In this document: one piece after another, positions 20,221 through 23,298 of the stretch | Layout: each line of letters opens with the position of its first letter | Position numbering within the stretch: the stretch's first letter is position 1 | Source: Pseudovibrio brasiliensis | GTDB taxonomy: Bacteria > Pseudomonadota > Alphaproteobacteria > Rhizobiales > Stappiaceae | NCBI RefSeq assembly: GCF_018282095.1 | Contig: NZ_CP074126.1 | Location: forward strand, 2,738,501-2,802,500 | Direction of reading: 5' to 3' | DNA length: 64,000 nt | Position numbers and translations under genes: made by a program | Notes under the pieces: generated by a model | The model's database searches: none | What the model saw: the letters and a program-made list of their open reading frames with translations, nothing else | Told to the model about the DNA's origin: nothing

Positions 20221-21249
20221 TCAGGTCATGGCGCCATGGGCAACCAACGCCTGATCAATCGCCATCTTGAACCGGCCCGCAACCTTGGCAAAGCCGTCAG
20301 ACGTGCCGTGGATCTCATCCACCCAATCCGTCAGGTTCGGCATGGCACCCCGGCAGTCCACTACAATCACATTGGCATCCGTCGCCGCCAGATCATCCAG
20401 CATGGCATAAAGCTCATCCAGCATAGCGCTGATGATCTTCCGACCTAAAACACTCGGGATGTTGCGGTCAGACAGCGGTTCTCCCAACCACTCATCCTTT
20501 GCTGCATGCAGCGGATCGCGTGTATCTCCCTGCCACTTGTAAGGGAACACGTAATCATAACCATGCACGAACACAGGCATGTTCTGCAGCTCAGAAACCC
20601 CGCGAATGTCACTAATCACCCGCTCATAGGCTCCTTTCAGAAAAGCAAGCTTCTCATCAAAGGCCGCGCGATTGATATGCCCGTCCACATCATTGATGTC
20701 GCCATTGAAGTCCTGAAGAATGTCAAAGAGAACTGCAACACCCGTATCCGGATCTTCGCCGATAATGTCATTTCCGGCAGCTGAGAACAGGAAGCCGGAG
20801 ACCTTGTCCTTGTAATCATACAGCGCGGAGAAATATTCCCGCCGCCGGGCACGATCAGGGCCGTAGACCATGTTCTGCGCTGTATCTCCCGCAGCACCCA
20901 GCGAGTAGATGTTGTAGTGCTCACTCAGATGATCAATCACATCGTCAATGATAATTGGAAACTGGAACCAGCTGTCCCCTTCAGAGATCAGCATAGGCCG
21001 TTCAGGATGATCCTTCATGGCTTCTTTGAAGCGCCAGTATCGGCGAATGCGGGAGGCCCAGTTACCGATCTGAAGAGCATTCTCAAACTCCTCATCAATC
21101 TCGGTCATCTCCACCAGTTCCGGCTTCACCTGGAACTGTATGTCGAATGCACCCGTATGCCGCACAACCCTGCAGTATTTCAGCAGTTGTTCTTCAGGGA
21201 CACTCGGATCACGAGCTAACTTCAGAAACTCATCATATGTAATTTTCAT
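20221..21249 (-). CDS. Putative SGNH-fold hydrolase, function unknown
   Basis: A 342-residue protein. SGNH/GDSL-type blocks can be traced: SEGDSWF (Ser93), GAAGD (119-122), SAAGNDI (Asn160) and DEIHGT (Asp311, His314). An N-terminal region of about 85 residues (starting MKITYDEFLKLARD) precedes the hydrolase part and is rich in acidic and aromatic residues. No signal peptide or membrane helix is present, so it should be cytoplasmic, unusual for this esterase fold. It is divergent from a trypsin-like peptidase across 97 bases and has its own terminator. Substrate unknown; a shared role with the two adjacent peptidases is inference. Confidence 0.75.
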   Translation of the reverse strand: MKITYDEFLKLARDPSVPEEQLLKYCRVVRHTGAFDIQFQVKPELVEMTEIDEEFENALQIGNWASRIRRYWRFKEAMKDHPERPMLISEGDSWFQFPIIIDDVIDHLSEHYNIYSLGAAGDTAQNMVYGPDRARRREYFSALYDYKDKVSGFLFSAAGNDIIGEDPDTGVAVLFDILQDFNGDINDVDGHINRAAFDEKLAFLKGAYERVISDIRGVSELQNMPVFVHGYDYVFPYKWQGDTRDPLHAAKDEWLGEPLSDRNIPSVLGRKIISAMLDELYAMLDDLAATDANVIVVDCRGAMPNLTDWVDEIHGTSDGFAKVAGRFKMAIDQALVAHGAMT

Positions 21250-21346
21250 AGTATTCCCCCTCTACGATTAACTATTAAACTTTACACAAGAGGTGAGTTT
21301 ACGGTTAAGCTTGCCATATGCAGATAACAATTTAAAGGTACATTTC

Positions 21347-22462
21347 ATGACCCTTAAATTACAGAATTTAAACAGTGTATTACTTGAAAAAGCAGCTCGA
21401 CGACTACGAGATCGAAGCGGGGAATTAAAGAAGACCCGCAGCGCAATTCTGGCAGGAACACAGGCAGAGACAGACAGCAAGGAACGGTTGGCACTCTACA
21501 ATCAACGCGCCGCCACGCTAGCTATGTCCGAAGGTCAAACCGCGCCCGTTCAGAGCCCGATCTTTGAAGAAGAAAAGCCAGACCTCACCAGCATTGGCAA
21601 GGAAGCTCTGATCGGGACACAAAACGATCTGCTCCCCATCGAGTTTTTTGAGTACGGCCTCTATGCCGCTCGTTCTGTTGGCAGAATTGAGCATGTGGAA
21701 GGATTAAGGTTCGGCACAGGTTTTCTGGTGGGCCATGGTCTGATGATGACCAACCATCATGTTCTCAGCACGCCAGAGGACGCCAAAGCCCACTTCTTTG
21801 AGCTTGGAGCAGAAACCAACCGCATTGGCAACCAAACACCCTCAAAGATCTGCTCCATCGATCCCAACCGCTTTTTCTGGGCCAGTGAGGAACTGGACAT
21901 CGCAGTGGTGGCCGTGGTGGATGAAGATCCCGGCTTCATCCCGCTGGATCATTACGGATGGCATGCCCTCATCCGCCAGCAAGGCAAAATCAAGAAGGGA
22001 GATCCGATTAATATCATTCAGCATCCCCTTGGCCGCAACAAAGCCGTGGTCGTTCACAACAACCACCTTCTGCATATTGAAAATGGAACTGATGCACACA
22101 TGTTTTGCTGGTACTCCGGCGATACACAGAAAGGCAGCTCAGGTTCTCCCGTCTTCAACAACCGCTGGGAAGTCGTCGCCGTCCACCATATGGCCGTGCC
22201 GCAAACCAACGCTGATGGTGCTATTCTGGACAAACACGGCAATCCCCTCACCCGCGCTCAGGCCCGCCGCAATCCATCCCTCATCGCCTACGCCGCCAAC
22301 GAAGGCATCCGCACCTCCCGTATTGTCAGCACACTGGAATCCGCACAGTTCACCAAAGCCCACCACGCCGACATACGCGACTTCCTCCTGAAATCCTGGA
22401 GCAGCCCCGGTGCCCAACGCAGAGGCCTGCGCGCCGCAGTAAGAAGCGCACAGGCTTTGTAG
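21347..22462 (+). CDS. Trypsin-like serine peptidase, cytoplasmic
   Basis: A 371-residue protein with a chymotrypsin-fold domain in its middle and C-terminal parts. The triad is His138 (TNHHVLS), Asp184 (ELDIAVVAV) and Ser265 (KGSSGSPVF); GTGFLVGHGLMMTNHH and NIIQHPLGRNK are typical of this bacterial trypsin-like group. The first ~85 residues are charged and helical (LLEKAARRLRDRSGELKKT), probably a coiled or partner-binding region. No signal peptide is visible, so it probably acts inside the cell. ATG at 21347 is favoured over GTG at 21293, which adds a poorly conserved-looking stretch. It is divergent from the SGNH gene and convergent with the cysteine peptidase gene. Confidence 0.82.
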   Translation: MTLKLQNLNSVLLEKAARRLRDRSGELKKTRSAILAGTQAETDSKERLALYNQRAATLAMSEGQTAPVQSPIFEEEKPDLTSIGKEALIGTQNDLLPIEFFEYGLYAARSVGRIEHVEGLRFGTGFLVGHGLMMTNHHVLSTPEDAKAHFFELGAETNRIGNQTPSKICSIDPNRFFWASEELDIAVVAVVDEDPGFIPLDHYGWHALIRQQGKIKKGDPINIIQHPLGRNKAVVVHNNHLLHIENGTDAHMFCWYSGDTQKGSSGSPVFNNRWEVVAVHHMAVPQTNADGAILDKHGNPLTRAQARRNPSLIAYAANEGIRTSRIVSTLESAQFTKAHHADIRDFLLKSWSSPGAQRRGLRAAVRSAQAL

Positions 22463-22494
22463 CTCCGCAACATCATTTAGTGGCAGGACCCAGG

Positions 22495-23298
22495 TTAAGC
22501 ACCCAACCGAATCCAGATGCCCGGAAACTCATAGGTGTTCGGCCCAATCTTTGTGGCAGGCTTTGCAGAAGAGCTGGTCTGCGGCTTGAAGTTGCCAGTG
22601 GTCGCAATTTCAAGAACGTCACCAGTCGCCGGGTCGTAAATCATGGCCTTGTCCGTGTCCGTCAGATGACGCGTGCCAGCAACCCAGTGCATCGTATTAG
22701 TACCTGCATACTGCACCAGAATGAGGTTCACCTGATTTGTCTGGAACGGAATGCTGGTCACTGTAGACTGAGTGACAGTCTGGCCAAGCTTGTTCTGGAT
22801 CAGGTCTTCTTCACGATTGAAGAGATAGCCACCAGCTGCATTCAGAACCTTGAAGTTGTTGAACAGAGCTTTGCCGAATGCAGTGTAATAGGTAATGTTC
22901 TTTGCCAACCCCGGAGCGATCGTTTTAGCAACAGCAACCATACCCGAGGGGCTGTTCTCCAAATCAAGCGTTCCATCGTTCTCTTTATAAAGTGCAGTTG
23001 GGTTTGGTGAGGCAGTCAGGTCAAGTTCCAGATTTCCTGAAACTTTGTAAGTCTGCTTCGTCACCACCTCAGCAATCTGCAAGCGATGATAAATAAGATG
23101 GCTCAGCCGCCATAAATTGATGCGCCCGGGATCGGTTGTGACATCATAGCCTTTGGTGAGATCAGCCGCATTGAGCGTATTGACGTCGGTTGCCTTGGGC
23201 AGAAAGCCAAGTTGTGCAAGAGCTGCATTCACACAATAAGCACCACAGGATTTAGGAGAATGCTGGACGATGCCGGCATAAAGATCAAAGTCTGCCAT
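22495..23298 (-). CDS. Putative papain/C39-like cysteine peptidase
   Basis: A 267-residue protein. HSPKSCGAYCVNAALAQLG near the N-terminus has the CG-x-x-C-x-x-x-AL pattern of papain-fold peptidases with Cys18 as likely nucleophile. MHWVAGTRH would provide the histidine and MIYDPATGDV the aspartate. The order Cys-His-Asp agrees with C39/NlpC-like folds. No secretion signal. ATG at 23298 is chosen because AAGGA precedes it; a longer upstream frame runs through a terminator and is not plausible. Peptidase activity is inferred from motif order only; an inactive homologue or transglutaminase-like protein is possible. Confidence 0.62.
   Translation of the reverse strand: MADFDLYAGIVQHSPKSCGAYCVNAALAQLGFLPKATDVNTLNAADLTKGYDVTTDPGRINLWRLSHLIYHRLQIAEVVTKQTYKVSGNLELDLTASPNPTALYKENDGTLDLENSPSGMVAVAKTIAPGLAKNITYYTAFGKALFNNFKVLNAAGGYLFNREEDLIQNKLGQTVTQSTVTSIPFQTNQVNLILVQYAGTNTMHWVAGTRHLTDTDKAMIYDPATGDVLEIATTGNFKPQTSSSAKPATKIGPNTYEFPGIWIRLGA

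Follow-up and report, generated by a model that had tools for sequence, protein, structure and literature searches.

A divergent SGNH esterase and trypsin-like peptidase gene pair in Pseudovibrio, with a tentative model of peptidase gating

Why do three hydrolase-like proteins with no sign of export lie side by side in a Pseudovibrio genome? The question is raised by a stretch of 64,000 nucleotides from Pseudovibrio brasiliensis (contig NZ_CP074126.1, positions 2,738,501 to 2,802,500; hereafter the window), whose host genome (G000) comprises 6.03 Mb in 6 contigs. A gene for an SGNH-motif protein (P0001) on the minus strand diverges from one for a trypsin-like peptidase (P0002) on the plus strand, and a third gene, on the minus strand and coding for a papain/C39-like protein (P0003), converges on the trypsin gene. 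A first-pass annotation, made from the letters of the sequence, had proposed that the three form one functional module. Its open reading frames (ORFs) and the motifs it quoted are all present at the positions it gave, and its module survives for the SGNH and trypsin proteins, which are linked in every genome of our survey that holds them and keep their divergent order in unrelated genera. The third protein is judged not to belong to it.

Linkage and co-inheritance of the SGNH and trypsin genes

The survey covered 61 genomes, our own included, with cut-offs of E < 1e-100 for SGNH and E < 1e-70 for the trypsin family. Full-length SGNH genes were found in 13 genomes and the trypsin family in the identical 13, with the two genes adjacent and divergent in 13/13; four further genomes hold weak SGNH matches only. 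A scan of genome contigs then gave 214 SGNH relatives, and the locus counts reported here rest on the best 80 of these. A trypsin accompanies the SGNH gene at 47 of the 80 loci, where it is divergent (35), on the same strand (5), convergent (1) or fused to the SGNH protein (6; L074, L081, L108, L111, L113 and L119). The divergent count is made up of 34 loci plus L105, which was tallied with them since its trypsin gene is on the opposite strand.

The divergent pair spans Alphaproteobacteria and Gammaproteobacteria as well as metagenome-assembled genomes labelled Opitutaceae (L070) and Calditrichia (L088), and it is sparse, with the pair family present in 8/387 genomes of the class, our own included. 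The first-pass annotation had named single, unlinked homologues as the outcome that would speak against a module. That outcome does not apply to the pair, and it does apply to some SGNH copies that have no trypsin and to the third protein.

Inheritance of the pair was compared by a mirror-tree approach using 29 of the 35 divergent loci (five further Pseudovibrio loci and L068 were dropped), 28 of which had an available RecA sequence. For these 28 pairs, the Spearman correlation of distances is 0.641 between SGNH and trypsin, -0.079 between SGNH and RecA, and -0.117 between trypsin and RecA. The partial correlation for SGNH and trypsin is 0.638, and 0/2000 label permutations reach the value of 0.641. 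Values in the same order are 0.668, 0.141 and 0.083 for the 22 alphaproteobacterial pairs, and 0.697, 0.036 and 0.011 when L070, L088 and L100 are dropped. The RecA control behaves as expected (0.12 inside Stappiaceae and 0.81 for alphaproteobacteria versus far groups). Because the SGNH and trypsin distances correlate with each other and hardly at all with RecA, the pair travels between hosts as a unit. We therefore hold with high confidence, from these comparisons, that the two genes constitute a real, mobile, divergent pair.

Within the genus, the pair occupies a variable site downstream of an amino-acid transporter ATPase gene, which we take to be AapP. In G000, G003, G006 and G007 it carries the pair; G002 has the third gene and the end of the trypsin gene there, G005 has another gene, and G001 and G010 have transposase-looking ORFs (judged by eye). 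In G008 the site leads directly to a TetR gene whose product is 45% identical to the TetR of the window.

One locus may represent a sensor-linked version of the pair. At L064 (11072-12727), the trypsin carries a TPR-S sensor domain in the same protein, and its gene converges on that of a stand-alone SGNH protein.

Features of the two proteins

P0001 has the hallmarks of the SGNH superfamily, namely the catalytic Ser, Gly, Asn and Asp-x-x-His blocks and an SGNH flavodoxin-like fold. The block residues S93, G121, N160, D311 and H314 are invariant in 23/23 aligned sequences. The protein shares this fold and these blocks with SGNH/GDSL esterases such as EstL5 (8ik1), Axe2 and Est24, but differs from them in its low identity (about 11-14%), its extra N-terminal domain (NTD) and its lack of an export signal. 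No Pfam model matches P0001, although distant fusion members do match Lipase_GDSL_2, and a search of solved-structure sequences returned two weak, chance-like rows only. None of the three proteins scores above cut-off against NCBIfam, and neither P0001 nor P0003 matches a PADLOC model.

The first-pass annotation described a stretch of about 85 residues preceding the catalytic part in both the SGNH protein and the peptidase, and these regions are real. The SGNH NTD accompanies the SGNH domain at 80/80 genome loci, including those within long fusions; among 14 plasmid loci that are more distant, it is seen in just 4, with no detection in the other 10. The structure model of P0001 has a pLDDT (per-residue model confidence) below 50 at two conserved segments, 234-251 and 307-315, the latter of which carries the catalytic D and H; the underlying alignment of 23 rows is shallow. 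A trypsin-less copy of the SGNH gene (L066, 9947-11026) has SECDSWGQFP in place of SEGDSWFQFP as its first catalytic block, a change that lies close to the nucleophile.

The ORF listed for the peptidase (21293-22462, plus strand) starts at GTG and encodes 389 residues. Translation almost certainly begins instead at the ATG at 21347, because stop codons lie upstream of this ATG in four same-genus copies (codon 4 in G002, G009 and G015; codon 18 in G003) and because the six closest database relatives among those listed (P0131-P0136) are 371 residues long, as is the product from this ATG. Counted from there, the triad H138/D184/S265 is numbered just as originally proposed, and it is intact in 36/36 sequences (the 35 divergent loci plus the window). 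P0002 also scores 83.9 bits with the Pfam Trypsin_2 profile (PF13365), for which the cut-off is 27.6, and so combines the triad and the family profile expected of a trypsin-like member of the PA clan. Its best PADLOC match is RT-Protease_XI (2.6e-11), which covers the trypsin domain alone, and this domain also gives the sole match of the three proteins to PHROGs.

Two further residues, T278 and H298 in the GTG numbering, are present in 36/36 sequences. A Thr and a His in the S1 pocket are marks of Glu-specific S1B enzymes, which resemble glutamyl endopeptidase. The best solved sequence relatives of P0002, staphylococcal ones among them, presumably belong to this S1B group. On the basis of these pocket residues, as generally understood, P0002 is predicted to cut after Glu.

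Both proteins are likely to act inside the cell. Judged from hydropathy, none of the three proteins has a signal-like start or a membrane segment, in agreement with the earlier claim that all lack a signal peptide. Among database relatives (515 found for SGNH and 3861 for trypsin, with 120 listed for each), signal-like starts number 0/120 in both families, and one membrane-like segment is present in five of the listed trypsin relatives. The 97-base intergenic stretch between the two genes, detailed with the other features in Table 1, contains no match to a sigma-70-like promoter.

A second, shorter trypsin-like gene is present in the same genome (L185, 8814-9701; G000:C1 about 3894313-3895200). 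It is divergent from genes that look, by eye, like those for PspA, NfeD-like and flotillin proteins, and relatives of it are present in 10 genomes of the genus, of which 9 carry the SGNH-trypsin pair.

Table 1. Features of the locus, in coordinates of the window
Feature	Position	Strand	Basis
SGNH-fold esterase, 342 aa, predicted cytosolic; proposed effector	20221..21249	-	ORF and motif blocks
SGNH N-terminal domain, about residues 1-84	20998..21249	-	No Pfam match; conserved with the SGNH domain
Divergent intergenic stretch, 97 bases, from SGNH start to trypsin ATG	21250..21346	.	Presumed two-way promoter
Trypsin-like serine peptidase, 371 aa from ATG; proposed activating peptidase	21347..22462	+	Triad H138/D184/S265
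Peptidase N-terminal region, about 85 residues	21347..21601	+	Weakly to moderately conserved among relatives; no named domain
Papain/C39-like protein, 267 aa; judged to be outside the module	22495..23298	-	Distribution and context

Peptidase partners and a proposed gating role

A trypsin, caspase, subtilase or CHAT peptidase is near or fused to the SGNH domain at 66 of the 80 loci. Caspase fusions account for 15 (L122 and L124-L137, in part also with M15), S8 subtilases lie near L102 and L106, and CHAT peptidases lie near L109 and L110. Some of the trypsins carry nucleases in turn. Those fused to an EEP nuclease are found beside or within SGNH genes in L101, L103, L108, L114 and L119, and a NucA-type nuclease with a trypsin is the SGNH partner in L074, L081, L107 and L139. 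In a tree of trypsin domains, drawn with eight loci omitted as duplicates and with the own-genome paralogue not represented, the nuclease-fused trypsins form one group with two others (94/95). The peptidase partners of the NTD-SGNH unit are thus seen, from gene content, to be exchanged across clans. All loci were gathered via SGNH, which biases this view, and the tallies of nearby peptidases are raw counts, uncorrected for chance.

Plasmids carry such arrangements as well. Of 34 plasmid records with SGNH relatives, 14 were examined by domain scan, and a trypsin, caspase or S8 peptidase is beside or fused to the SGNH domain in 9 (L138-L144, L150 and L151). L148 has an M15 gene only, and the scan found none of its domains in L145, L146, L147 and L149. 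A cyanobacterial plasmid cluster (L140, 1468-7431) comprises genes for a trypsin-SGNH fusion, GH19, an amidase and a murein endopeptidase. A Rhizobium plasmid stretch (L151, 1267-14915) is annotated with C1 peptidase, trypsin, YEATS-associated-helix, caspase (an SGNH-caspase), EEP and cardiolipin-synthase-like genes.

From linkage, co-inheritance, intact catalytic residues, missing export signals and exchanged peptidase clans, we tentatively propose, at somewhat less than even chances, that the peptidase gates the SGNH protein as an esterase effector. The two cytosolic proteins, made from divergent genes, would share one pathway. The peptidase would stay quiescent until it receives a cue, such as damage to the envelope, a phage or a gene transfer agent. 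It would then cut or otherwise license the SGNH protein, whose active site might thereby be released from the NTD or from conserved, flexible loops of the same protein. Once active, the esterase might strip acyl groups from lipids or the envelope of its own cell and so bring about arrest or lysis.

Activation by the peptidase and harm to the cell are suggested by precedents among pro-nucleases, LypC and NucA-trypsin systems. In the first of these, a trypsin or caspase activates a pro-nuclease in co-evolving pairs, with insertions that block the active site as a second hallmark, and the authors expect other classes of proteolytically activated enzymes (Tuck et al. 2025, PMC12799240). These pairs, from Hachiman, AVAST, Lamassu, DRT and canu loci, resemble ours in joining a trypsin-like or caspase peptidase to a hydrolytic effector, in co-evolving, which the mirror-tree correlations indicate for the SGNH-trypsin pair, and in spreading between systems. 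The published pairs (PMC12799240) differ in that their effector is an MBL-fold nuclease, whereas ours is an SGNH esterase and no nuclease domain is found in the three window proteins; that their trypsin forms part of a fusion with a defence enzyme, whereas ours is stand-alone and divergent; and that cleavage has been demonstrated for them, whereas for our pair it is a proposal.

LypC, a trypsin-endonuclease of Caulobacter crescentus, is needed for lysis through its peptidase serine and not its nuclease, and its lytic effector is unknown (PMC13236601). As with our pair, the peptidase is alphaproteobacterial and trypsin-like; the LypABC locus lies outside defence islands, and proteins of the trypsin-endonuclease type adjoin SGNH genes in L107 and L139. 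A CARD-like domain and an NLR-like ATPase belong to LypABC, whereas neither was identified with our pair, whose neighbourhood was read as an ORF list only. Other CARD-NLR variants have phospholipases or endonucleases in place of gasdermins, so lipid-cutting death effectors have already been described (PMC13236601). The main text of that report contains no word beginning hydrolase, lipase or esterase.

The NucA-trypsin "System 3" is mostly alphaproteobacterial, and a proteolytic cascade has been proposed for it (Kaur et al. 2020, PMC7159879). Its trypsin is likewise coupled to other peptidases and hydrolytic effectors, but around a NucA nuclease core that the window pair lacks. The same paper reports caspases beside alpha/beta-hydrolases, and the terms SGNH and GDSL are absent from it. 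Bacterial gasdermins also have genes that adjoin interchangeable activating peptidases, caspase-like and others (PMC9612521), although they form pores whereas our candidate is an enzyme, and P0001-P0003 have no gasdermin match.

The pairing of a peptidase with a hydrolytic effector is thus known, as are lipid-cutting effectors of cell death. The papers listed by literature searches, in a library short of most subscription papers and all bioRxiv preprints, give in their titles and abstract openings no description of an SGNH-peptidase pair of this kind. Other SGNH reports concern PppH, an SGNH-like Pseudovibrio protein of a biosynthesis cluster (PMC11796379), and SGNH lipases in another context (PMC12419801).

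Several points weigh against the gating proposal. Cleavage, activity and toxicity are steps that we infer. No peptidase partner was found at 14 of the 80 loci (L066, L067, L069, L071, L072, L089, L104, L112, L116, L117, L118, L120, L121 and L123), and for the first five the trypsin family is absent genome-wide at E <= 1e-15; an M56 peptidase gene upstream in L067 was not counted as a partner. This tally includes L089, which is at a contig end, L104, whose genome has a trypsin elsewhere, and L112 and Geminicoccaceae-like loci, which were outside the Pfam scan. The shallow alignment alone may explain the low pLDDT of the SGNH loops. Among the neighbours in the window, which were read as ORFs only, nothing beside the pair was recognized as a sensor such as an NLR. 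Finally, models of 16 PADLOC families matched among the 98 neighbours at 26 pair loci (E <= 1e-10; genes called by a simple codon-position rule), each hitting a single protein and counted without a background set. One is a caspase, and the rest are methyltransferase (most), HTH_VI, CapH, RmrA and Csa3 models. These raw numbers are low and lend no support to enrichment in defence islands, which the first-pass annotation had suggested looking for, nor do they exclude it. Carriage by phages was also considered and dropped, as phage records gave no match to the SGNH gene and 0/28 pattern matches in viral contigs were confirmed.

The Pfam families of the neighbours are mostly metabolic, among the 25 of 84 listed, which detracts from the gating proposal and would suit an ordinary pair that together processes a peptide, ester or storage polymer, or deacylates a cell product, without killing. 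Such a role, which we consider unlikely, also agrees with the nearest solved folds to P0001, which are carbohydrate and lipid acyl-esterases. However, the patchy spread, horizontal co-inheritance and exchange of peptidases across clans would be unusual for metabolism, and no third gene is conserved with the pair: among the clusters listed, the most frequent other family occurs at just 5/27 non-Pseudovibrio divergent loci, three of them from Pannonibacter. Even if metabolic, a strictly linked, divergent and horizontally moving pair would still need explaining.

This lack of any other recurring family also counts against an envelope-degrading set of hydrolases that lack signal peptides of their own and would be freed by lysis or passed to other cells. 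Genes of the M15, amidase, glucosaminidase, GH19 or murein endopeptidase kind are indeed linked to distant SGNH relatives or joined to them in fusions, and in L089 a Tle1-like phospholipase is encoded two genes upstream. However, local M15, amidase-glucosaminidase and Tle1 models find 0 matches at the 35 divergent pair loci, and we judge such a set to be quite improbable.

Roles could also be reversed, with the peptidase as effector and the SGNH protein as its controller, which might for instance produce or break down an acylated signal or inhibitor. In other architectures, related trypsins occur as fusions with nucleases; LypC acts at an upstream step of lysis (PMC13236601); and the SGNH protein may have a role of its own because some copies carry no partner. 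That the SGNH domain is constant while peptidases are exchanged fits it better as the shared output, although loci collected by SGNH bias this comparison, and the reversed arrangement likewise strikes us as quite improbable.

If peptidase gating holds, bacterial proteolytic activation would extend from pore-formers and nucleases to SGNH esterases, which would be among the further enzyme classes thought possible by Tuck et al. (PMC12799240). It is conceivable, though doubtful, that NTD-SGNH pro-esterases form a further class of peptidase-gated death effector, switched by a trypsin, caspase, subtilase or CHAT peptidase and acting on the cell's own acyl esters, and that they are candidates for the lytic effector of LypC-like trypsins. 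A rule of one SGNH with many peptidases would help in finding members and may point to the effector downstream of such peptidases, and the two genes would offer a test system of laboratory size.

The papain-like third gene

The predicted fold of P0003 matches papain-like peptidases, C39 domains included, and Q12, C18 and H204 are invariant in 8/8 aligned sequences. The protein is thus predicted to have a papain-like fold with Cys and His, as the first-pass annotation had supposed; solved-structure sequences gave no match. Absence of such a fold, which that annotation had named as a refuting outcome, was not what we observed, and it is the lack of linkage that speaks against the third protein. 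Peptidase C39 is the domain of ABC exporters that cleaves leader peptides, and P0003 differs from it as a stand-alone protein in which no other domain was matched.

Its place in the module was rejected. The family was found in Pseudovibrio only, and the gene is missing beside a near-identical SGNH-trypsin pair in G006. In G007, a relative (L026, 1492-2274) is flanked by ORFs that resemble phage-tail genes by eye, which suggests that the C39-like family can be prophage-borne. The third gene is probably a local bystander, a passenger specific to Pseudovibrio. To this extent, and as far as we can see, chance adjacency holds for the third gene. For all three genes it is scarcely credible, because linkage and co-inheritance exclude it for the SGNH and trypsin genes.

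A different papain-like protein occurs near related SGNH genes. An upstream gene for a large protein with a papain-like domain and an alpha/beta-hydrolase-like part (the latter assigned by eye) is found at 12 of the 15 caspase-fusion loci and in L074 and L081. No homology of P0003 to these proteins could be detected, a profile comparison of two shallow alignments giving a probability of 0.1. Where the papain and hydrolase protein precedes NTD-SGNH-caspase(-M15) genes (L124, L126, L127, L130-L133 and others), it possibly represents a second peptidase-esterase pairing. Its hydrolase part has GHSAG in L074 and L081, and the serine is replaced in L124, L126 and L138.

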